Part shown: positions 17,460 through 28,530 of the stretch, in pieces | How the letters are laid out: each line of letters starts with the position of its first letter | How positions within the stretch are numbered: position 1 is the stretch's first letter | Source of the DNA: Pseudomonas gingeri | GTDB taxonomy: Bacteria > Pseudomonadota > Gammaproteobacteria > Pseudomonadales > Pseudomonadaceae | Direction: 5' to 3' | Assembly (NCBI RefSeq): GCF_013386115.1 | Contig: NZ_JACAOR010000001.1 | Coordinates: 152,639-216,638 of the forward strand | DNA: 64,000 nucleotides | Made by a program: the position numbers and the translations under genes | Notes under the pieces: generated by a model | The model's input: only the letters and a program-made list of their open reading frames with translations | The model's database searches: none | What the model was told of the DNA's origin: nothing

Positions 17460-18512
17460 ATGCCGCAGCCGCTGGATATCACCGCGTTGCCGCTCCTGGA
17501 CCTTTCAGCGCTCGATGGCAGCGCCGGGCAGCGCCAGGATTTTCTCGACGCACTGCGTCACGCCGCACGCGATGTCGGATTTTTCTACCTGACCGGACAC
17601 GGCATCGACAGCGATCTGCTCAAGCAGGTCCAGGAGCATGCCCGGCAGTTCTTTGCCTTGCCCGACGAGGACAAGCAGGCCGTCGGCATGATCCATTCAC
17701 CGCACTTTCGCGGCTACAACCGCGCGGCCTCGGAGATCACCCGCGGTCAACCGGATCTGCGCGAACAGTTCGATATCGGCGCCGAACGCGAAGCCCTGGC
17801 ACTGGATGAACACACGCCGACCTGGGCCCGCCTGCAAGGGCCGAACCTGTGGCCGGCGGCGCTGCCCCAGCTCAAGCCGCTGTTGCTCGACTGGCAGCAG
17901 GCCATGACCCGGATGTCGCTGCGCCTGTTGCGGGCCTTTGCCCAGGCGCTGTCATTGCCGGAAGGGGCGTTCGATCCGCTTTACGGCGACAAGCCCAATG
18001 AACATATCAAGCTGATCCGCTACCCCGGTCGTACCGCGCACGAAAGCAACCAGGGCGTCGGTGCCCACAAGGATTCCGGGTTCCTCAGTTTCCTCCTGCA
18101 GGACCGGCAGGCTGGCCTGCAAGTGGAGATCGAGGAGGGCCGCTGGATCGATGCGCTGCCCCGGGAAAACACCCTGGTGGTGAATATCGGCGAATTGCTC
18201 GAACTGGCCACCAACGGTTATCTGCGGGCCACGGTGCATCGCGTGCAGTCACCGCCGGCCGGAAGCGAGCGCCTGTCGATTGCCTTCTTCCTCGGTGCGC
18301 AACTGGATGCGGTGGTGCCGCTGTATCCCTTGCCGACCGCGCTGCTGCGCGAGGCACGGGGCCCGGCCAGCGATCCCGACAACCCGTTGTTGCGTGATGT
18401 CGGCTGGAACTACCTCAAGGGTCGCCTGCGTTCGCACCCCGATGTCGCCCGGAGTTTCTACGCCGATGCCCCCACGCCCAAGGTGTTGGCCCCCAAGGCC
18501 GTCAGCGCCTGA
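17460..18512 (+). CDS. Isopenicillin-N-synthase-like 2OG/Fe(II)-type oxygenase
   Basis: The 350-residue protein has the DIOX_N region (residues 1-120, with RDVGFFYLTGHGI) and a C-terminal 2OG-Fe(II) oxygenase double-stranded beta-helix. The iron triad is visible as HKDSG (H201 and D203 approximately) and a later TVHRV histidine, followed by RLSIAFF, where the arginine binds 2-oxoglutarate. Members oxidise small molecules; the real substrate is not known. It is directly followed (28 bases) by the MetQNI-like genes. In Pseudomonas this pairing usually belongs to sulfur-source acquisition, so oxidation of an imported organosulfur compound is plausible. Confidence 0.85.
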   Translation: MPQPLDITALPLLDLSALDGSAGQRQDFLDALRHAARDVGFFYLTGHGIDSDLLKQVQEHARQFFALPDEDKQAVGMIHSPHFRGYNRAASEITRGQPDLREQFDIGAEREALALDEHTPTWARLQGPNLWPAALPQLKPLLLDWQQAMTRMSLRLLRAFAQALSLPEGAFDPLYGDKPNEHIKLIRYPGRTAHESNQGVGAHKDSGFLSFLLQDRQAGLQVEIEEGRWIDALPRENTLVVNIGELLELATNGYLRATVHRVQSPPAGSERLSIAFFLGAQLDAVVPLYPLPTALLREARGPASDPDNPLLRDVGWNYLKGRLRSHPDVARSFYADAPTPKVLAPKAVSA

Positions 18513-18540
18513 CCCTGTCATCAGCTCAAGGATTACCAGC

Positions 18541-19356
18541 ATGTTGAAAAAAACCGGATTGACCCTGGCGGTCGTGGCGGGCCTGTTCGCTTCATTCGGC
18601 GCCCTGGCCGCGGAACCGTTGCGAGTGGCGGCCGACCCGGTCCCCCACGCGCAGATCCTCGCTTATGTACAGAAAATCGATCCGCAACTGAACCTCAAGG
18701 TCATCGAGATTCCCAACGGCGTGAACTCCAACGAACTGCTGGCCCATGGCGACGTCGACGCCAACTACTTCCAGCACTTGCCGTATCTCAATTCCCAGGA
18801 ACAGGCCCTCGGCCAGAAGTTCGCGGTGGCGGCGACCGTGCATATCGAGCCGCTGGGAATCTACTCGCACCGACATAAAAGCTTCGACCAGGTGCCGCAA
18901 AAGGGCACCGTCGCGTTGCCGAACAATGTCACCAATCTCAGTCGTGCCCTGTACCTGCTGCAGGATAACGGCCTGATCAAGCTCAAGCCCGGCTTCAACA
19001 ACCCGGCTACCGACCAGGCAACGCCCAGGGACATTGCCGAGAACCCGAAACAGCTGAAGATTCTCGAGATTGAATCGCCGCAATTGCCCCGCGCCCTGGA
19101 CGATGTCGACCTGGCGGTGATCAACGGCAACTACGCGCTGGAGGCGGGCCTGTCGCCGGCCAGGGACGCCCTTGGCCTGGAAAAGGCCGTCGACAATCCC
19201 TACGCGAATATCCTGGTGACGACGCCGAAGTTGCAGGATGACCCACGGATCAGGCAACTGGCCAAGGACCTCAACTCACCCCAGGTGGCGAAATTCATCA
19301 CCGATACCTATTCGGGCTCGGTGATTCCGGTGACCGTCGCGGACCGCAAGCCATGA
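18541..19356 (+). CDS. metQ: MetQ/NlpA-family periplasmic binding protein
   Basis: The 271-residue NlpA-family protein has a Sec signal (cleavage after LAA near residue 24). There is no lipobox cysteine, so unlike many MetQ proteins it should be soluble. Conserved landmarks include [21 protein letters not shown] and [16 protein letters not shown]. It binds methionine or a related compound and feeds the MetNI importer encoded next, with which it overlaps by four bases (ATGA). The ATG at 18541 was chosen because the signal peptide starts there. Confidence 0.88.
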
Positions 19357-20132
19357 TCCGCGTCGAGCAGTTGAGCAAGCGCTATGGCGAAGGGGCGCCG
19401 GTACTGGACCGGGTGTCCCTGGACATCCCCGACGGGGCGATCTACGGCATCGTCGGTCGCAGCGGTGCCGGCAAGTCGACCTTGCTGCGTTGCCTCAATC
19501 TGCTCGAACGCCCCAGCGCCGGGCGCGTGGTGGTCGACGGCCAGGACCTGACGACCCTGTCCGATCGGGACCTGCGCAGCCAGCGCCAACGTATCGGCAT
19601 GATTTTCCAGGGCTTCAACCTGCTGCACTCGCGCAATGTCTTCGACAATATCGCCGTGCCGCTGGAAATCGCCGGCACCGGCAAGGCTGAACGGCAGGCC
19701 CGGGTTTGCGAGCTGCTGGAACTGGTGGGCCTGGCGGACAAGGCCGAGGCCTTTCCCTCGCAACTGTCCGGCGGGCAGAAACAGCGGGTCGGCATTGCCC
19801 GGGCCCTGGCGGCACGCCCGGCCTATCTGCTTTCGGATGAGGCCACCAGTGCCCTCGATCCGGAAACCACGGCGTCGATTCTCGAATTGCTGCGCGATAT
19901 CAATCGCCGGTTGGGGCTGACCATCGTGCTGATCACCCATGAGCTGGATGTCATCCGATCGATCTGCGACCACGCCGCTTCCCTGGCTCAGGGGCGACTG
20001 CTGGAGTCCGGTCCGCTGGCGCGTTTGCTGGCCGACCCGGACTCGGCCCTGGGACGCTCGCTGCTACCGGCCCCGCAGCCGCGCTTCGACGATGAGGTGC
20101 GGATCCCGCGCTTGAGGTTGGCCCAGTTATGA
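19353..20132 (+). CDS. metN: MetN-like ABC transporter ATPase lacking the NIL regulatory domain
   Basis: The 259-residue ATPase has Walker [10 protein letters not shown] at residues 35-43, the signature LSGGQKQR near residue 135, and Walker B with [11 protein letters not shown]. True MetN is about 340 residues and ends with a NIL (ACT-like) domain that binds intracellular methionine and shuts the importer. Here the protein stops soon after the ATPase fold, so that feedback is missing. It overlaps metQ-like and metI-like genes by four bases each. Confidence 0.9.
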
Positions 20133-20800
20133 CCCGGACCATCGATTGGAACGAGATTTTCCAGCTGTTGCTCAACGCCACCGGCGAGACCCTGTACATG
20201 GTGCTGCTGGCGGGGCTCTTCACCTTGTTGATCGGCCTGCCCCTCGGGGTCCTGCTGTTCATCAGCCGTCGCCATGGCCTGTACCCGCTGCCGCGCCTGC
20301 ATGGCGGCCTGAGCGCGCTGGTCAACCTCGGGCGGTCGTTGCCATTCGTGGTGATGCTGATCGCCCTGATCCCGCTGACCCGACTGATTGTCGGCACCAC
20401 CCTGGGTAGCACCGCCGCCGTGGTACCGATCACCATCGGCGCCTTTCCATTCTTCGCCCGTATCGTGGAAAACGCTTTGGATGAGGTCGACAAGGGACGG
20501 ATCGAGGCCATCCTATCCATGGGCGGCGATATCCGCCATGTGATTTTCAAGGTCCTGTTGCCCGAGTCGCTGCCGGCCTTGCTGGCGGGCGTTACCCTGA
20601 CCCTGGTGATGCTGATCGGCTTCTCCTCCATGGCCGGAGTGATCGGCGGGGGCGGCCTGGGGGACCTGGCGATCCGCTATGGCTATCAGCGTTTCAACAA
20701 CGAGGTGATGGTCGCCACGGTGATCGTCCTGGTGATTCTGGTGCAGGGTGTGCAAAGCCTCGGGGATCGACTGGTGCGTTCCCTGGCCCATCGGCGCTGA
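20129..20800 (+). CDS. metI: MetI-like ABC transporter permease
   Basis: The 223-residue MetI-type permease has about five helices and the motif [15 protein letters not shown] in the coupling loop, which docks to the ATPase. The [20 protein letters not shown] segment near the end is highly typical of MetI. Overlap with the ATPase gene (ATGA-like) shows co-translation. It ends the operon; a 285-base gap follows. Confidence 0.92.
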
Positions 20801-21009
20801 GGAAACCGGAAAAGTTCGAGCTGTTTAGATTGATTATTTCCTTCGGCTATTTGAATAGCTCGTACGGGCATATCCAAAGCGGGTAATCCGCCGTTGAAAC
20901 TGCCTGTCTGTCTGCTTTGAAAGCGATATGACCGCCAGGACGGATATCGGCCCGCAAAGGGCAGCATAAAACTCGCTCCGACATCCGTTCCGGCTGCTGG
21001 ATCGCCGTC

Positions 21010-21037
21010 TTGCCGTGCGCCTGGCATTCCCTAGAAT
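21010..21037 (+). promoter_or_regulatory. Candidate sigma-70 promoter of the Met/Cys-rich gene
   Basis: TTGCCG (21010-21015) and TAGAAT (21032-21037), 16 bases apart, lie about 50 bases before the ATG at 21086. AGGGAG at 21073-21078 is a strong ribosome binding site. A heptamer, AACTATC, is repeated just upstream of it. Confidence 0.45.
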
Positions 21038-21085
21038 CCGCCCCATCAGCTTCGTCCAACTATCGAACTATCAGGGAGTTTCACC

Positions 21086-21592
21086 ATGATGAATGCCATG
21101 CAGATGCAAATGCCGATGAACACCATGCCGATGATGCCGGCCATGGGGATGCCGATGATGATGGCGACCATGAGCTGCGAAATGATGGGCGACGGCATGC
21201 TGTGCAAGATGATGCCGGCGGCGGGCATGGACATGGCCATGTTTAAGAACAGCGCGCAAATGATGCAGATGATGATGGACTGCGGCATGCCGATGATGAT
21301 GCATTGCGCCAACATGAGCATGATGTGCATGTCCCAAGCGGCCATGGCCATGCCGATGATGGGCAGCATGATGCCGATGCCGATGATGGGCATGCCGATG
21401 CCGTCGATGAAATGCGTGATGGAATGCTCGATGCTGGCCGACGGCATGCAGTGCAAGATCATGCCGATGGCCGGCATGAACATGGACATGATGAAAAGCT
21501 GCTGCGCCCTGATGATGAAGCTGATGAACGACTGCAGCATGCCGATGATGATGAGCTGCAACGGCATGCCGATGATGTGCTGCACCTGCTGA
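21086..21592 (+). CDS. Extremely methionine/cysteine-rich protein with internal duplication
   Basis: I recognise no family. By hand count 67 of 168 residues are Met and 15 are Cys, about half of the chain; there is one Phe, one His, and no Trp or Tyr. Two similar halves are visible (about 29-82 and 108-168), each with the pattern C..M..DGM.CK.MP.AGM.M, then DC.MPMMM.C and a closing MMC. There is no signal peptide, so it should be cytosolic. A candidate promoter, strong ribosome binding site and bidirectional terminator show it is a real monocistronic gene. The thioether and thiol ligands suit soft metals such as Cu(I); methionine storage or oxidant quenching are alternatives. The MetQNI-like operon lies just upstream. 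Confidence 0.85.
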   Translation: MMNAMQMQMPMNTMPMMPAMGMPMMMATMSCEMMGDGMLCKMMPAAGMDMAMFKNSAQMMQMMMDCGMPMMMHCANMSMMCMSQAAMAMPMMGSMMPMPMMGMPMPSMKCVMECSMLADGMQCKIMPMAGMNMDMMKSCCALMMKLMNDCSMPMMMSCNGMPMMCCTC

Positions 21593-21607
21593 TCGATCCG
21601 GCAGTAA

Positions 21608-21644
21608 AAAAAGCCCGGCTGGAGTGATCCTCGCCGGGCTTTTT
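21608..21644. terminator. Bidirectional intrinsic terminator
   Basis: Perfect 12-base arms (AAAAAGCCCGGC and GCCGGGCTTTTT) around a 13-base loop give a T-run on both strands. It ends the Met-rich gene on the plus strand and the XRE-cupin gene on the minus strand. Confidence 0.92.
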
Positions 21645-21660
21645 CGTGGCTGTCGGTGGG

Positions 21661-22308
21661 TCAGTCGAGGCGTTCGGGGTAGGTCACCACCAGGTACGCC
21701 ACGGCTTCGCTGTCGGCGGGATTGCGATAGCGATGCGGCTGGTCGGCGTAGAACAGGATCGAGTCGCCGGTGGACAGCAGGTAGCGTTGGTCATTGACAC
21801 TGATCTCCAGTACACCCTGGGCCACCACCAGGTTTTCCTGGACTCCGGGGCCATGTCCCTCGGACTCGTCCTCGCCCAGCGGGCTCAGGCGCAGTTCGTA
21901 GAATTCCGATTGGCGCGCCACATCGAACGGGAACAGGGCGCGGCTGACAAAGGCGCCGTTGGCACTGACCAGGCGCTTGCTCTTGTTCGCCGACAGGACC
22001 GCCACACCCTCGAAGGCACGATGTTCGAGAAAGGCCGCGACGGATACTTTCAGGCCCTTGGCAATCTTGCACAGCACCTTGATCGACGGCACACTGCGGC
22101 CGGACTCGATCTGCGCCAGCATCGCCCGGCTGACCCCGCATTGACGGGCGAGGGCATCGAGGGACAGATGATGCTTGCCGCGCAGGCGTTGCAGGTTCTG
22201 GGCGACCCGTGCGCAGATCGGGTCTTCTTCAAGCGCCTGCAGGTTGTTCAGGTCCAGCGGCGGTTCGTCGGCGCTCGCCAGAAACCGCGAGGGCTCCTGC
22301 GCATTCAC
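21661..22308 (-). CDS. XRE-family regulator with C-terminal cupin sensor domain
   Basis: The 215-residue protein has an HTH_3 domain at about residues 35-90 (LSLDALARQCGVSRAMLAQIE) and a C-terminal cupin_2 domain from about 140 (GVQENLVVAQGVLEI, then LSTGDSILFYADQPHRY). This layout matches PuuR/SutR-like regulators of amine or sulfur metabolism. I take GTG at 22308 as the start because its first bases overlap the stop of the 53-codon gene as GTGA; no internal ATG precedes the DNA-binding domain. It ends at the same terminator as the Met-rich gene. Confidence 0.85.
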   Translation of the reverse strand: MNAQEPSRFLASADEPPLDLNNLQALEEDPICARVAQNLQRLRGKHHLSLDALARQCGVSRAMLAQIESGRSVPSIKVLCKIAKGLKVSVAAFLEHRAFEGVAVLSANKSKRLVSANGAFVSRALFPFDVARQSEFYELRLSPLGEDESEGHGPGVQENLVVAQGVLEISVNDQRYLLSTGDSILFYADQPHRYRNPADSEAVAYLVVTYPERLD

Positions 22309-22466
22309 GCGTGACGGGGCTCGGTGGCACGGGCGCTCTGCACCCACTGGAACGCCTGGTAGCCGGCATTGCGTGCATACATTTCCCACAGGGTCCGGGC
22401 CAGTTGCTGCGCCTGCTTGCGTTTGCGATAGCGGGCGAGGTCGATAACGGTATCGGTCGGATGCAT
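22305..22466 (-). CDS. 53-residue conserved-looking small protein coupled to the XRE regulator
   Basis: A short open frame starts at the ATG at 22466 with GGAGAG five bases upstream and ends in a TGA that overlaps the regulator's GTG (GTGA). The product begins MHPTDTVIDLARYRKRKQAQ, is basic in the first half, and has a single amphipathic helix-like centre with two Trp residues. It has no membrane segment. The overlap and good ribosome binding site make it a probable leader gene of the regulator operon. I do not recognise its family. It may simply allow coupled translation or may bind the regulator. Confidence 0.65.
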   Translation of the reverse strand: MHPTDTVIDLARYRKRKQAQQLARTLWEMYARNAGYQAFQWVQSARATEPRHA

Positions 22467-22623
22467 GGGGACTCTCCAGTGTCGGTATGAGGGGAGAGTA
22501 CGTGGTTGTTTTAATAACGATAAATACTGATTTTTTATTTATTAATTCTTTTTGGGTCTTAGTGCGCGGCTCCGTCGAAAGCCTGTCGCCAGGCCCGGGA
22601 GCGGACCTGGCGGGTGGTCGTGA

Positions 22624-23367
22624 TCAGGCGCCCGGGCTGGACTTGAACACGCCGCTGAGGACAAACGCGTAGCGCTCCGGACGAATGAAAAAGGTCGTGC
22701 GGTCACAGCAGCGACCATCGGCGAAATACGAGGTGCGCTCCATCACCAGCAGTGCCGCGCCGCGTTTGACGTGCAGGGCATTGGCCAGGTGCCTGTCGGC
22801 CTCCTGGGCGCGGATCGCCATGTCGGCACGGGTCACCGGCGAGCCGGTGATCGACTCGAGGATCGAGTAGATCGGCCGGTGCTCGACCTCGCTCCAGACC
22901 ACGCTTGCCAGTTCGGCGGGCAGGTGGCTGCGGCCCAGGGCAATGGGTTCGTCGTCGACAAAGTGCAGGCGCTCCAGCAGCAGGCAATCCTGTGCCGCGC
23001 CGAACAGCCCGCGCAACGCCTCGGGAACCGCCTGCAGGTGATGGTCGAGGACCCGCATGCTCGGCTTCAGTCCTTGCAACAGCAGGGCTTCATGAAAGCT
23101 GCGCAGGGCATCGAGGCCATGTCGCACCTGCTTGGCCGCGACAAAAGTGCCCTTGCCCTGTTTGCGCTCCACCACGCCATCGTCGCTGAGTTTGCCCACG
23201 GCCAGGCGGATGGTCACGCGGCTCACCGCGAAGCGCTGGCCCAGTTCGGCCTCCGAGGGCAGCTTGCCGCTGGGTTCGTAGTCGCCGCGCTGGATCTCCC
23301 CGAGTAGCTGGTGGGCGATCTGTTCGTAGAGCGAGGTCGTGCTGTCGCGAAGAATGGACGTAGACAC
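22624..23367 (-). CDS. GntR-family regulator with UTRA domain (HutC subfamily)
   Basis: The 247-residue protein has the GntR winged helix at about residues 10-75 (LYEQIAHQLLGEIQRGDYEPSGKLPSE, RFAVSRVTIRLAVGKL) and a UTRA effector domain from about 95 on. HutC-type members sense small carboxylates, sugars or phosphonates. It is divergent from the ABC-DUF3604 operon, and palindromes fill the short gap at the operon's first codon, so it most likely represses that operon. The ligand is unknown. Confidence 0.9.
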   Translation of the reverse strand: MSTSILRDSTTSLYEQIAHQLLGEIQRGDYEPSGKLPSEAELGQRFAVSRVTIRLAVGKLSDDGVVERKQGKGTFVAAKQVRHGLDALRSFHEALLLQGLKPSMRVLDHHLQAVPEALRGLFGAAQDCLLLERLHFVDDEPIALGRSHLPAELASVVWSEVEHRPIYSILESITGSPVTRADMAIRAQEADRHLANALHVKRGAALLVMERTSYFADGRCCDRTTFFIRPERYAFVLSGVFKSSPGA

Positions 23368-23445
23368 TGAGTGATTCCATGGCCGGAGAAGCGAGGACCG
23401 AGACTTCGCTTCTAAGGTTATAAAAACAGGTTATTGGGATGACTT

Positions 23446-23461
23446 GTATTAATACGTATTA
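23446..23461. promoter_or_regulatory. Overlapping palindromes at the start of the ABC operon
   Basis: Two perfect palindromes overlap: GTATTAATAC (23446-23455) and TAATACGTATTA (23450-23461). The second includes the first base of the annotated ATG at 23461. HutC-type GntR proteins bind short palindromes beginning GT and ending AC, so this is a candidate operator for the divergent GntR. It would block initiation or early elongation. Confidence 0.5.
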
Positions 23462-24354
23462 TGTCAGGCATTCCCATTGTAAACGACCTGACGACACTTG
23501 CCATGCCAGAACTCTTTCCTTGTGCCCCGCGGTCGGCCGCGGCGCTGATGGTCGATGACATCAGTTTCAGCTATCCCAACGGTCATCGGGTGTTTTCCTC
23601 CTTCAGCCTGAGTGCCGCCCCTGGCGAGTTCGTCGCGATCCTCGGGCCTTCCGGCTGCGGCAAGACCACCTTGCTCAACCTGTTGTCGGGTTTTGTCCGG
23701 CCGCAGGCGGGGCAGATCCGCCTGAACCAGACCACGGTGCACCCGGAGCGTTCGGAACTCGGCTATGTGTTCCAGGCGCCGCAACTGTTTCCCTGGCTGA
23801 CCGCCCTGGAGAATGTCCGCTTCGGCTTGCGCATGGCCGGTGATACCAGCGAGGCGCGGCAGCGCGAACAGGCCATGCAGTACCTGCGCCTGGTCGGCCT
23901 GGAGCAGGCCGCCCAGCGCTTGCCCCATCAGTTGTCCGGCGGCATGCAGCAGCGCGTTTCGCTGGCCCGCACCCTGGCGCTGGAGCCGGAGGTCCTGCTG
24001 ATGGACGAACCCTTCGCCGCGCTGGATGCGATCAGTCGCAACAGCATGAACGAGGAAACCCTGCGGATCTGGGCCGAACTGGGCCAGACGGTGTTGTTCA
24101 TTACCCATGATATCGACGAGGCGGTGTTCCTCGCGGACCGGGTGATTGTCCTGAATATCGCCCCCGGCGGCATCCACAGCGAACTGCGGATCGACCTGCC
24201 GCGCCCGCGCTCCAATCGCAACACTCGTCGGCTGCCGGCTTTCCTCGATTACCGCAATGAGCTGATGGAGCGTATTTCCCAGGTCATGGCGCTGTCCGAG
24301 GCCCGTGTTTGCCCCGCTGTTTCCCTCTCCCCTGAAATCGAGTCGATCCAATGA
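23461..24354 (+). CDS. SsuB/TauB-like ABC transporter ATPase
   Basis: The 297-residue ATPase has Walker A GPSGCGKTT at residues 62-70, the signature LSGGMQQR, and Walker B LLMDEPFAALD with the H-loop VLFITHDIDEAVFLADR. This is the sulfonate/nitrate/taurine importer type. No clear ribosome binding site precedes the ATG at 23461, and a palindrome covers it; ATG 23503 is an alternative start that would still keep the whole ATPase fold. It overlaps the binding-protein gene by four bases. Confidence 0.88.
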   Translation: MSGIPIVNDLTTLAMPELFPCAPRSAAALMVDDISFSYPNGHRVFSSFSLSAAPGEFVAILGPSGCGKTTLLNLLSGFVRPQAGQIRLNQTTVHPERSELGYVFQAPQLFPWLTALENVRFGLRMAGDTSEARQREQAMQYLRLVGLEQAAQRLPHQLSGGMQQRVSLARTLALEPEVLLMDEPFAALDAISRNSMNEETLRIWAELGQTVLFITHDIDEAVFLADRVIVLNIAPGGIHSELRIDLPRPRSNRNTRRLPAFLDYRNELMERISQVMALSEARVCPAVSLSPEIESIQ

Positions 24355-25352
24355 TCAAACGTACCCTGCTTGCCCTTTCATTGTCCGTGGTCGCCGTGGC
24401 CGGCAGTCTGTCGGCCGTTGCCGATGAGAGCCGGCCGTTGCGGGTGGGCTATGTGTTTGCCATGGCCAATGCGCCGGCGCTGATCGCGGACAGGCAGGGT
24501 TACTACCGCGAGGAAGGCCTGACGGTGGACCTCAGGGCCCTCGGTGACGGGCCGGTGATCCAGCAGGCCCTGGCGGCCGGTGAGCTGGATGTCGCCTACG
24601 TCGGCACGCCCCCGGTGTACCAGTGGTTCTCCCGCGGCTTGCAGAGCCGCATCCTGGCCAAGGTCAACTACGGCCAGGCGGCGGTGATCGTCGACAGCAA
24701 GAGCCCGATCACCTCCCTGGCCGGACTCAAGGGCAAGAAGCTCGCCGGGGTCAAGAAGGGCAGCGGCATGGACGTGCTGCTCAGGGGCTATGTGCTCAAG
24801 GAAAAGGCCGGCCTGAATCCCGATGCCGACCTGAACATCATCGACATGCCGCCGGGCAACATGAATGCCGCCCTTGAGCGTGGCATCGTCGACGCGGCCT
24901 TTTCCTGGGAGCCCTTCGTCAGCCAGTCGCTGCTGCGCGGTTCGAGCCGGGTGCTGTTCGATGTCAACCAGGCCTTGCCCGAATACCCCTGGTACGTGGT
25001 GATCGCCTTGCCGAAAACCCTGCAGGAACGCCCTGACGATGTGGTCAGGCTGCTACGGGCCCATCGCAAGGCAATTGCCTTTCTCAACGAGCATCCGGCC
25101 GAGTCGAACCGGATCATCGCCGAGGCGTTCAAGCTCGAAGCGGTGCAGGGCCCGGACGGCAGCACCATCGCCCCGGAAACCATCGTTGCCCAGGCCCGCA
25201 GCCGGCTCGGCTGGTCGGCGGATCTGCAGGACGCCGATATCCGCTTTATCCAGCGCCTGATGAACTACTCCCTTGACCTGGGCTTTATCGATGCACCGCT
25301 CAAGACCGAGCAGATCGTCGACACCACCTACCTGGAAAAAGCCTCGCGCTGA
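24351..25352 (+). CDS. SsuA/NrtA-like periplasmic binding protein
   Basis: The 333-residue protein has a Sec signal (cleavage after AVA near residue 24) and an SsuA/THI5-like NMT1 domain: LRVGYVFAMANAPALIADRQ, then GELDVAYVGTPPVYQW. Members bind sulfonates, nitrate, taurine or pyrimidines. The cargo here is unknown; the co-transcribed DUF3604 enzyme does not identify it. No sulfonate monooxygenase gene accompanies it, which argues against simple alkanesulfonate use. Confidence 0.88.
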   Translation: MIKRTLLALSLSVVAVAGSLSAVADESRPLRVGYVFAMANAPALIADRQGYYREEGLTVDLRALGDGPVIQQALAAGELDVAYVGTPPVYQWFSRGLQSRILAKVNYGQAAVIVDSKSPITSLAGLKGKKLAGVKKGSGMDVLLRGYVLKEKAGLNPDADLNIIDMPPGNMNAALERGIVDAAFSWEPFVSQSLLRGSSRVLFDVNQALPEYPWYVVIALPKTLQERPDDVVRLLRAHRKAIAFLNEHPAESNRIIAEAFKLEAVQGPDGSTIAPETIVAQARSRLGWSADLQDADIRFIQRLMNYSLDLGFIDAPLKTEQIVDTTYLEKASR

Positions 25353-25359
25353 GTCTGTC

Positions 25360-26109
25360 ATGTCCTTGCCAAAACCGAATTGGGGCTGGGCTTCGCTGCC
25401 CGTCCTGCTGTTGATCTGGGTGGCCTTGGCCAGCCGTTTTCCCACCTACATCCTGCCGCAGCCCTGGGACGTGGCCCGCGAAACGTTGCGCTGGCTGGGC
25501 GACGGTTCGTTGTGGCAGCACCTGCGGGCCAGTGTGCTCGAAGAGTTGGGCGGGTTCTGTGCCGCGGTGCTGGTCGCGGTCCTGCTGGGTACGGCGGGCG
25601 GTCTGTCTTCGCGTTTTCGCGACTTCATATCGCCGCTCAACAGCCTGTTCATGGCGATCCCGCCCATCGCCTGGGCACCGCTGATCATGATCATTTTCGG
25701 CCTGGGCTATGTGTCCATCGTCCTGGTGATCTTTATCGCCGCGGTGTTTCCCATGGCCGTGACCATCCAGGAGGGCGTGCAGAGCATTCGCGGCGGCGAA
25801 GTCCGCGCGGCACGCACCCTGGGGGCCAATCCCTGGCAACTGCTCGCCCATGTCTACCTGCCGGCGTCGCTGCCGTTTGTCACGGCCGCCCTGCGTATCG
25901 GTTTCAGCCAGGGCTGGCGGGCGCTGGTGGCGGCGGAAATGATCGGCGCCTCCCAGGGGATCGGCTGGATGGTTGCCACCGGCGGGCAGATCGGCAACAG
26001 CAGCCAGGTGCTGCTGGGCATCGTGCTGATCGGCCTGATCGCCTGGCTGATGGAGAGTTTCGTGTTCCGGCGCATCGAGCGTCACTACCAGAAATGGCGC
26101 GTGCAATAG
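25360..26109 (+). CDS. SsuC/TauC-like ABC transporter permease
   Basis: The 249-residue permease has six or so helices and the EAA loop VRAARTLGANPWQLLAHVYLPASLP near residues 145-170. The GMAIPPIAWAPL-like segment (here MAIPPIAWAPL, about 98-108) is typical of the SsuC/TauC type. I chose the ATG at 25360, seven bases after the binding-protein stop; the upstream frame overlaps that gene and is not plausible. Confidence 0.9.
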   Translation: MSLPKPNWGWASLPVLLLIWVALASRFPTYILPQPWDVARETLRWLGDGSLWQHLRASVLEELGGFCAAVLVAVLLGTAGGLSSRFRDFISPLNSLFMAIPPIAWAPLIMIIFGLGYVSIVLVIFIAAVFPMAVTIQEGVQSIRGGEVRAARTLGANPWQLLAHVYLPASLPFVTAALRIGFSQGWRALVAAEMIGASQGIGWMVATGGQIGNSSQVLLGIVLIGLIAWLMESFVFRRIERHYQKWRVQ

Positions 26110-26160
26110 AGCGTGCCAGTCCCTATTGAAGATTCCGCGAAGACCCGTACGAGGTGTCAT

Positions 26161-28530
26161 GTGAACAACGTTTTCGATCCCCGCGAAGCCGGGCATTACA
26201 TTGCCCCGCAAGGCCTGTATGAACGCAATAAGCAGCGCCCGTTCCTGGGTCATGTCAGCTGTGACCGCAACACCCTGGTGGCCGGCCAGTGGGACGAGAT
26301 CACCCTGGTCTACGAGGTCGGCGGCAGCGGCCTGGCCGACGGCGCCTGGCTGAAGCTGGCCTTCAAGTTCTACTCCGACTGGGCCTTGTTCCAGACCTCG
26401 AATCCGACCGGCCCCAACTACGTCAGCGCCGAGTACCAGGCCGGCGAGCTGGTGCCGGGCCAGAGCCGGGCCACGGTGCAGCACCTGAAGGTGCGCTTCG
26501 ACCAGAAGGGCCACGAGCGGCCGTTCCAGAAGGCGATCATCATCGATATCGTCGACGGCTACCTGAACCCCGGCGACCGGGTCATCATCCGCCTCGGCGA
26601 TCGCCGCCAGGGCGGGGCCGGCACGCGGGTGCAGAGCTTCGTCGAGAAGGACTTCCGTTTTCGCCTGTTCATCGACCCGCTGGGCAGTTCGAAGTTTGCC
26701 GAGGTGCCGGGCGACCCGTTGCTGGATATCGTCCCGGGGCCGGCCCATGGCGTACAACTGATCGTGCCGCGGCTGGTCGGTGCCGGTGAGGCGTTCGACG
26801 TGTTGCTGCGGGTCGACGATGCCTGGGGCAATACCTGCCGCGGCTTGCCGCTCGATGGCCTGCTGACCCTGAGCGGTCCGGACGGCGAGCAGCGCCAGCA
26901 AGCGTTCCGCCTGGCGAGCGAAGGCTGGGCGATTGCCCGGTTGCAGGGCGTGGCGTTCGAGGCGGTGGGTGAGTGGCGATTGTCGGCCGCGGTGCATGCC
27001 CCTTTTGTTCGTGGGGCCCAGGCCTTTGTCACGGTCGATCCGGCCGGCAGCGCATTGCGTCCGCTGTATGCCGACCTGCATGTGCATTCCGATGACACCG
27101 TGGGCACCAATGACACGCTCTACAACCTCAGCTACGGCCGCGATGTCGCCGGGCTCGACGTGCTCGGCTACACCGCCAATGACTTCAATATCACCGAGCA
27201 GCGCTGGGACCAGGCAGTGAGGCTGATTCACGAACTCAACGAAACGGGTCGCTTTGTCTGCTATCCGGGAACCGAATGGTGCGGCAACTCCTGCGCCGGA
27301 GGCGACCGCAACGTGGTGTTCCTGCACGATCGAAAGCCTGAATTCCCCTTCGACAACCAGGGGCGGCTGGTGCGCTCCTTCGAATGGAACGAGTTCACCG
27401 CCGGCACCATCAAGCCGGGCGCCTGGCCGGTGGACGAACTCTACGCCGCCTATGCCAAGGACCCCGAAGGCCACCTGATGATGCCCCATGTCGGGGGGCG
27501 CCGCTGCAACCTCGACTGGCACCATCCGGAGCTGGAGCGGCTGATCGAAGTCGGCTCGGCCTGGGGGCAATTCCACTGGGTATATGCCGAGGCGTTGCAG
27601 CGGGGTTATCGGGTCGGTGCGGCGGCCAACAGCGACGAGCATCAGGGGCGCTGCGGTGGCGGGGTCCCGGCCACCGCGGTGTTCGGTTCCCGCGGCGGCC
27701 TGACCGGCGTGCTCGCCGAGCGTTTCGACCGTGCCAGTGTCGGCAAGGCGCTGCGCGCCCGGCGGACCTTTGCCACCACCGGCGAGCGCTCGTTTGCCAG
27801 CCTGCGCCAGGGCGAGAACTTCATGGGCGAGGTGTTCAAGGCGCCGGCCGATGCGCTGCTCGACTACCGCCTGCTGGGTGAGGCGGGCTGGGAGCAGGTC
27901 GACCTGTTCGATGGCGAGCAGTTGATCTGGTCGCGCAACCTGCACCAGGAACTGGGCTTTTCCGACCAGCGCATTCGCCTGCGCCTGGGCGGTGCGCGGA
28001 TCAAGGATCGCTACCGGGGTGCCTACTGGAGCGGCGAAATCCGCATCACCGGGGCGGTCATCAACGGCTTTCGCGCCCTGGGGCTCGATCATCCGGAGCA
28101 GACGGTGTGGCGCAAGGACGCGACGGTCCTGGCCTTTCGCACCGATACCAACGGCGACACCGATAGCCTGGAAATCGACTTGTCGCAACTGGCCGGTGCG
28201 ACCCTGGAGATCCGCAGTCGCATCGACAACTATATCAAGGTCGGCGACCCGTCCGAGCCGCAGCCTTATGTGCACGCGCCTTCGGTACTGATCCAGGTGT
28301 CCGGGGAAACGCTGCTGGCCCAGTCGCAGGTGATCGAGGAGTTGCCGGGGGCCGAACTGAAGGTTTCCCTGGAGCGGACCACCGCCGCGCCGCTGCCCCG
28401 CGAATTGCAAGGGCGTATCGATCTGGCGGAGCTGCAACTGGAACCGGGCCGCGAGCATCCCTTGTTCATCTGTGCGCGGCAGCGCGATCAGTCGCGGGTC
28501 TGGACGTCGGCGTTGTTCCTGACGCTGTAG
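26161..28530 (+). CDS. DUF3604 protein with PHP-type metallohydrolase core
   Basis: The 789-residue protein has an N-terminal beta-rich region (1-290), a PHP-like metal site and a C-terminal beta domain. DLHVHSD at residues 305-311 and NSDEH at 490-494 are the classic PHP ligands, with PHVGG and YPGTEW between them. The family DUF3604 is uncharacterised; a metal-dependent hydrolase or lyase acting on a small ester or phosphate is likely. No signal peptide is seen, so it acts in the cytoplasm on what the ABC importer brings in. I prefer the GTG at 26161, with GAGGT six bases upstream, over the GTG at 26113 that lacks a site. Confidence 0.8.
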   Translation: MNNVFDPREAGHYIAPQGLYERNKQRPFLGHVSCDRNTLVAGQWDEITLVYEVGGSGLADGAWLKLAFKFYSDWALFQTSNPTGPNYVSAEYQAGELVPGQSRATVQHLKVRFDQKGHERPFQKAIIIDIVDGYLNPGDRVIIRLGDRRQGGAGTRVQSFVEKDFRFRLFIDPLGSSKFAEVPGDPLLDIVPGPAHGVQLIVPRLVGAGEAFDVLLRVDDAWGNTCRGLPLDGLLTLSGPDGEQRQQAFRLASEGWAIARLQGVAFEAVGEWRLSAAVHAPFVRGAQAFVTVDPAGSALRPLYADLHVHSDDTVGTNDTLYNLSYGRDVAGLDVLGYTANDFNITEQRWDQAVRLIHELNETGRFVCYPGTEWCGNSCAGGDRNVVFLHDRKPEFPFDNQGRLVRSFEWNEFTAGTIKPGAWPVDELYAAYAKDPEGHLMMPHVGGRRCNLDWHHPELERLIEVGSAWGQFHWVYAEALQRGYRVGAAANSDEHQGRCGGGVPATAVFGSRGGLTGVLAERFDRASVGKALRARRTFATTGERSFASLRQGENFMGEVFKAPADALLDYRLLGEAGWEQVDLFDGEQLIWSRNLHQELGFSDQRIRLRLGGARIKDRYRGAYWSGEIRITGAVINGFRALGLDHPEQTVWRKDATVLAFRTDTNGDTDSLEIDLSQLAGATLEIRSRIDNYIKVGDPSEPQPYVHAPSVLIQVSGETLLAQSQVIEELPGAELKVSLERTTAAPLPRELQGRIDLAELQLEPGREHPLFICARQRDQSRVWTSALFLTL

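Follow-up and report, generated by a model that had tools for sequence, protein, structure and literature searches.

A conserved Pseudomonas module of a methionine- and cysteine-rich protein, an XRE-cupin regulator and a microprotein, with a possible role in storing sulfur amino acids

What use might a bacterium have for a protein in which about half of the residues are methionine or cysteine? The question is raised by a gene in the window, the 64,000-nucleotide stretch of Pseudomonas gingeri DNA analysed here, whose features are collected in Table 1. An earlier note on this DNA had counted 67 Met and 15 Cys among the 168 residues of the product, and our recount agrees, giving 82 residues or 48.8%. 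The same note knew of no characterised family like it. This still stands with respect to the collections searched: the protein matched no family in Pfam, NCBIfam, PADLOC or PHROGs, and alignment against PDB sequences matched no chain. Among its relatives, P0029 bears a precomputed PF05065 label and P0012 a DUF5948 match below threshold, neither of which was given weight.

Table 1. Features of the module and its immediate surroundings in the window
Feature	Position	Strand	Remarks
MetQ-like protein	ORF 18280-19356		Upstream of the Met-rich gene; context outside the module
MetN-like and MetI-like genes	19353..20800	+	Context outside the module
Candidate operator: conserved GCTGCTGGATCGCCGTCTTG block that overlaps the -35 box	20993..21012	+	Proposed from conservation
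Predicted sigma-70-type promoter of the Met-rich gene, TTGCCG-16-TAGAAT	21010..21037	+
Ribosome binding site AGGGAG	21073..21078	+	Comparable purine runs seen by eye in other loci
Gene of the Met/Cys-rich protein	21086..21592	+	168 aa
Hairpin with flanking A and T runs	21608..21644	.	Predicted terminator shared by both convergent genes
XRE-cupin transcriptional regulator gene	21661..22308	-	215 aa; GTG start at 22308
Microprotein gene	22305..22466	-	53 aa; stop and regulator start share four bases (GTGA)
A+T-rich element conserved ahead of the microprotein-regulator operon	22509..22553	-	Putative promoter or operator

The Met-rich gene is a real gene on which purifying selection acts. In 79 copies among those listed (78 listed loci plus the window, with L058 left out), pN/pS is 0.25 in the sense frame and 0.62-1.55 in the five others. 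This comparison of all six frames rules out a chance ORF or an antisense artefact; the openness of the sense frame is by construction, since the copies were picked as open frames. Codon replacement and composition were assessed in 79 sequences among those listed, again with the window and without L058. Met codons were found to be replaced in 6.3% of comparisons, against changes at 29.3% of fourfold sites, so that conservation above random drift, which the earlier note had proposed to look for, is seen by both measures. The note had also suggested checking the conservation of Cys and Met positions, and here some Cys positions, like some Gly and Pro positions, prove invariant or almost so. A CC pair lies close to the C-terminus. 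The Met plus Cys content of the 79 proteins is 50.5 +/- 1.4% (range 45.6-52.4%), Trp, Tyr and Arg each account for less than 0.2% of residues and His for 0.47%. In 12 distant relatives with a single domain and other lengths the Met plus Cys content is 45-51%. Bulk sulfur is thus what the family above all conserves, more than its sequence, the length of the tail or the number of domains.

The internal duplication that had been described is borne out in two ways. Residues 25-86 and 106-168 align with a BLOSUM62 score of 173, the best of 500 shuffles reaching 79, and a profile built from single-domain relatives matches each half alone (E 2.7e-15 and 5.0e-14). An AlphaFold2 model made with 48 sequences places two beta-beta-alpha-beta-beta (bbabb) domains at about residues 25-82 and 108-167, with pLDDT mostly 85-90 in ordered parts (overall pLDDT 74, pTM 0.64). 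Residues 1-22 and 89-106 have pLDDT below 50 and are predicted to be disordered; by hand count 21 of their 40 residues are Met, as are 46 of the remaining 128. For a one-domain relative the model has a single bbabb domain (pLDDT 72-85) preceded by a tail that is disordered and Met-rich, with overall pLDDT 64 and pTM 0.38. Comparison of the predicted model with solved structures gave no clear fold match. At the N-terminus of the protein a basic-hydrophobic pattern is absent by eye.

One antisense frame of the Met-rich gene is open in 78 of 79 sequences among those listed. It is a by-product of composition and has misled annotation: at least four public plasmid records list the gene on the wrong strand. 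In these rhizobial records (three from Rhizobium, one from Shinella), found by searching with the XRE-cupin regulator, the listed hypothetical protein is the antisense ORF (L173 6697-7047, L174 6696-7073, L175 6719-7198 and L176 6647-7045), and the true Met-rich gene is absent from the incomplete gene table.

The family is far from an orphan of a single genome. A contig search produced at least 79 distinct loci, all titled Pseudomonas except the gamma proteobacterium L18, and protein searches returned 34 and then 123 relatives, the best 120 of the 123 being listed; among relatives listed are Sorangium, Polyangium, Devosia, Bradyrhizobium and Microvirga. With the window's own genome included, the Met-rich gene is present in 51 of 249 Pseudomonas genomes sampled, while in a sample of the phylum 7 of 398 genomes match profile A1 and 8 of 398 match profile A2. 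In another order of the phylum it occurs in 9 of 397 genomes. Homologues in related genomes, the first thing to be sought according to the earlier note, therefore extend from Pseudomonas to other Pseudomonadota, Sorangium and Polyangium, in a patchy distribution. Pseudomonas forms have two domains, and elsewhere a single domain follows a Met-rich tail. The genome of Pseudomonas sp. QTF5 carries two copies, L024 and L058, one of them intact; the other is N-terminally shortened, accompanied by a shortened regulator and situated, by eye, a few kb from an apparent integrase gene.

The first reading of the Met-rich gene missed that it belongs to a module. Its convergent neighbour is predicted to encode an XRE-cupin-type regulator with both defining domains, HTH_3 at the N-terminus and Cupin_2 at the C-terminus (Pfam, 3.6e-13 and 6.8e-12). 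The start given in Table 1 follows from the overlap with the microprotein gene, and a longer ORF reaching 22389 results from taking the first start codon. By tblastn, the regulator lies convergent within 1.5 kb of the Met-rich gene in 73 of 79 listed Pseudomonas-type loci, at a median gap of 113 bases. Three of the remaining loci are cut off by a contig end, in L036 and L054 the regulator lies at a distance of 2.1 and 6.2 kb, and L034 is the only one of the 79 without it. In the other order of the phylum the regulator is convergent in all nine loci and 41-52% identical to that of the window. We take these nine genomes to be Alphaproteobacteria because one of the regulators (L086) resembles, at 69% identity, that on a Mesorhizobium plasmid.

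The association is equally visible genome by genome. A close regulator, defined by at least 67% identity over at least 190 of 242 residues, occurs in 51 of the 249 Pseudomonas genomes. Fifty carry it together with the Met-rich gene, at a distance of no more than 2 kb in 48; the two exceptions are G893 (6.7 kb apart) and G800 (on separate contigs). G947 has the protein without the regulator, its match lying at the edge of a contig, the assembly being split into 1150. In G925 (L101 3182-4012) an apparently frameshifted regulator stands next to a Met-rich gene of which 16 codons are left, a case of joint decay, and G920 retains a mere regulator remnant containing stops. G939 and G984 have regulator relatives, 54 and 50% identical, without a Met-rich partner. 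Apart from the regulator, no neighbour cluster is found in more than 16 of 80 listed loci, which indicates that the surroundings of the module have been reshuffled repeatedly.

The third member is the microprotein gene. Of 80 listed loci 72 had the regulator within two genes; L022, where the motif was unmatched, was dropped, and the microprotein gene is kept in 70 of the 71 loci examined. At 12 distant loci, and in Mesorhizobium, microprotein genes were spotted by eye or were already annotated as hypothetical proteins; their products share an N-terminal motif resembling TAxVIDLxxYRxxR and differ at the C-terminus. The microprotein has no Pfam match and one insignificant match in NCBIfam, and its 12 database relatives bear no functional name or are hypothetical proteins. 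Together the Met-rich, regulator and microprotein genes form a conserved, undescribed module.

The promoter, strong ribosome binding site and terminator proposed in the first reading are all found again (Table 1), the promoter and the terminator as predictions. Since 0.9 such promoter sites are expected in shuffled sequence, the match by itself says little; what makes it credible is the CTTG in its -35 part: across 48 non-redundant upstream regions, every base of it is conserved in at least 80%. Those regions were anchored on the -10 element, the invariance of which is consequently by construction. L058, L059 and L067, with unassigned starts, had been dropped, as had one of the remaining 77 for its length, before the 48 were retained. 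Within the candidate operator the GCTG and CTTG bases are kept at the same level of at least 80% and the intervening positions less. The stretch between the two convergent genes (21593-21660) has a folding z of -5.7, consistent with the hairpin. A riboswitch in the leader was considered and rejected, an Rfam scan of 20000-23700 giving a single match whose 23.9 bits fall short of the gathering score, 70. That sub-threshold match, to the Burkholderia sRNA Bp2_287, covers the shared terminator (window 21608-21731) and is probably due to chance. On the other side of the module, the A+T-rich element was found in 70 aligned regions, the alignment being anchored on its TATTTA-like core. An operator shared by both promoters was discarded, as no copy of the element occurs at the Met-rich promoter among the matches listed.

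What, then, surrounds the module? Neighbourhoods were compared for 67 of 80 listed loci (79 plus the window), 13 with short flanks being left out, using 13 Tau, Ssu, Met and Cys proteins of E. coli K-12 as queries (E 1e-15, 30% identity, 60% length). Controls were 54 windows of 20 kb at fixed, non-random positions in nine module-carrying Pseudomonas genomes. Sulfur genes lie near 34 of the 67 Pseudomonas-type loci and in 2 of the 54 controls (Fisher p 4e-9), where permease and binding-protein queries may also pick up relatives with other substrates. When loci with common neighbours are merged, 10 of 19 distinct contexts have sulfur genes (p 7e-6). The distant loci give 10 of 13; three of the 13 are one Rhizobium context, and at the Mesorhizobium locus the Met-rich ORF exists only in shortened form. 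Among the annotated neighbours of the distant loci are tauA, msuE, ssuD and cysE. At 33 of the 67 loci none of the 13 tested genes is nearby. In the window itself the Met importer-like genes of Table 1 adjoin the Met-rich gene, although the NCBIfam cut-off is reached by MetI alone, MetN and MetQ falling below. The region downstream (22624-28530) contains a GntR regulator, a sulfonate-type ABC transporter resembling SsuA/TauBC and a protein of 805 residues that weakly matches DUF3604 and the CehA/McbA metallohydrolases; to judge from these similarities, it is possibly an organosulfur or ester uptake locus.

Three functions had been offered for the Met-rich protein, of which the store of sulfur amino acids is favoured by these neighbourhoods and by the partner regulator, while the other two find almost no support in the neighbourhoods. 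One of those is a sacrificial oxidant trap, in which surface methionines would be oxidised and then recycled by methionine sulfoxide reductases. Abundant Met in flexible stretches would suit it, and there is a precedent in the perchlorate reducers, where MrpX, a small, Met-rich and likewise bacterial protein of the periplasm, is partnered by the reductase MsrP (YedY). Yet Msr genes were detected near a single Pseudomonas-type locus of 67 (MsrA at L059), near a single distant locus of 13 (MsrB at L111) and in none of the 54 controls; MsrP and MsrQ were found at none of the 67 or the 13, unlike the MrpX system. The partner regulator also speaks against a trap, its XRE-cupin type not being, to our knowledge, a known oxidant sensor. 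We regard this function as decidedly unlikely.

The other is a cytosolic soft-metal sponge, whose Met and Cys clusters would bind Cu(I), Ag, Hg or Zn under a metal-sensing cupin regulator. Bacteria do handle soft metals with Cys- or Met-rich proteins, among them the Csp copper storage proteins and CusF/SilE, and the composition, the near-invariant Cys and the C-terminal CC pair of the present family would accord with such a use. Csp proteins, however, are four-helix bundles lined with Cys, and the model here is bbabb twice over. Copper genes (queries CopA, CueR, CusA, CusB, CusF and CueO of E. coli) are almost absent nearby, with a hit at one of the 67 loci and none in the 54 controls or at the 13 distant loci, His is scarce, and Met-rich disordered stretches of variable length suit bulk content more than defined sites. 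The best PDB match of the regulator, 1Y9Q (E 1.3e-23, over residues 60-240 of the long ORF), lends the sponge some support: zinc is given for this structure in PMC2684688, so the signal of the regulator may be a metal. Even so, we consider a sponge unlikely.

The cupin pocket of the same structure holds D-methionine according to PMC7901475. This speaks for a sulfur reserve with a methionine-sensing switch, and would also fit a fourth function, in which the protein is a sink or buffer for methionine overflow and not a retrievable store, absorbing excess methionine or related compounds or signalling with the regulator. The Met importer-like genes adjoining it in the window point the same way. 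Taken alone, however, an overflow sink leaves the sulfonate and taurine scavenging neighbours unexplained, and we give it a low probability. A further relative of the regulator also brings sulfur into view. E. coli SutR is 31.6% identical to it over 177 residues (E 1.2e-26), across both domains, a matter of kinship and not of orthology; PMC8464067 cites 2015 work on the role of SutR in sulfur utilisation.

We are left with the module as a likely reserve of sulfur amino acids, the filling of which is predicted to be gated by a regulator that responds to methionine or to some related metabolite of sulfur, a proposal to which we allot roughly an even chance. It is favoured because bulk sulfur stays steady among proteins that differ in sequence, in the length of their tails and in how many domains they have, and because of the sulfur-gene neighbourhoods and the type of the partner regulator. 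With sulfur plentiful, the regulator would free the promoter of the Met-rich gene, and each copy of the protein would store 82 sulfur atoms in a chain nearly free of Trp, Tyr and Arg. When sulfur runs short, synthesis would halt and proteolysis would give back Met and Cys. The microprotein, from its place in the regulator operon, might modulate either the regulator or how the store is released, the least supported step of the scheme.

Several observations weigh against a reserve. Sulfonate genes are typically starvation genes, and such neighbours point to conditions in which a Met-rich protein would be expensive to make. The invariant and near-invariant Cys, Gly and Pro positions exceed the needs of a mere store, the module is present in only 51 of 249 Pseudomonas genomes, half of the loci (33/67) lack a tested sulfur gene, and the zinc of 1Y9Q raises the prospect that the regulator senses a metal. 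On the first of these points, PMC8557817 infers that under sulfur shortage a bacterium limits its Cys- and Met-rich proteins. Synthesis of the Met-rich protein during starvation is therefore unlikely, and a store made in times of plenty, beside starvation genes, makes sense.

How would such a reserve relate to known systems? Bacterial reserves of carbon, nitrogen and phosphorus are known, and some bacteria store elemental sulfur. In plants, the bulk methionine of Met-rich seed storage proteins such as delta-zein is a sulfur store. The present protein, if a store, would resemble them in holding its sulfur reserve as bulk Met; it is bacterial, with about 41% Met, and is likened to these plant proteins by function alone. 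A natural bacterial reserve of sulfur amino acids was not found in the open-licence PMC literature, and in a Paracoccus paper (PMC11578231) Met-rich proteins occur once only, as a reference entry. Sulpeptide 1, a Met- and Cys-rich peptide engineered in Rhodococcus, is likewise linked to sulfur-scavenging genes; in PMC5218467 its authors suggest that it may have a sulfur-reserve role and think it likely to change the total demand for sulfur very little. It is synthetic, designed for secretion and contains 14 Met and Cys in total, whereas the protein here is natural, predicted to be folded, has 82 and comes with its own regulator gene.

The regulatory side has closer parallels in Pseudomonas. 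According to PMC7901475, XRE-cupin regulators of P. aeruginosa act as local, transferable units: they bind beside the gene that encodes them and inhibit its neighbours. The present module is like these local repressor units in architecture, in adjacency to a presumed metabolic target and in likely gene transfer. Targets described there are mostly metabolic genes, unlike the presumed target here, a convergent gene for a Met-rich protein, and here a microprotein gene precedes the regulator gene. A bolder proposal is that the module is the first natural, dedicated bacterial reserve of assimilated sulfur, with a methionine-sensing switch and a microprotein gating deposit or withdrawal in one transferable unit, the counterpart for sulfur of what cyanophycin is for nitrogen. 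We advance this tentatively, as plausible if somewhat doubtful.

If the reserve is real, it provides an explanation, open to testing, of how bacteria in soil or associated with plants survive sulfur scarcity, accounts for an undescribed gene in sulfonate-scavenging loci and supplies a ready-made Met-rich protein for feed or biodesulfurisation work. Whatever its function, a predicted folded family with half its residues Met or Cys, and with a regulator gene dedicated to it, is a curiosity.

Two minor observations concern further non-coding sequences. At eight distant loci (L105, L107, L108, L110 and L173-L176) a GGAGGAAA stretch lies about 100-130 bases upstream of the start of the Met-rich gene. 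An A+T-rich palindrome, GGAATAAATA-N6-TATTTATTCC in L044, is placed about 80 bases before a TOBE-domain gene, with sites near 11462 in L044, 5758 in L045, 7690 in L039 and 11662 in L007; it partly resembles the A+T-rich element ahead of the microprotein operon.
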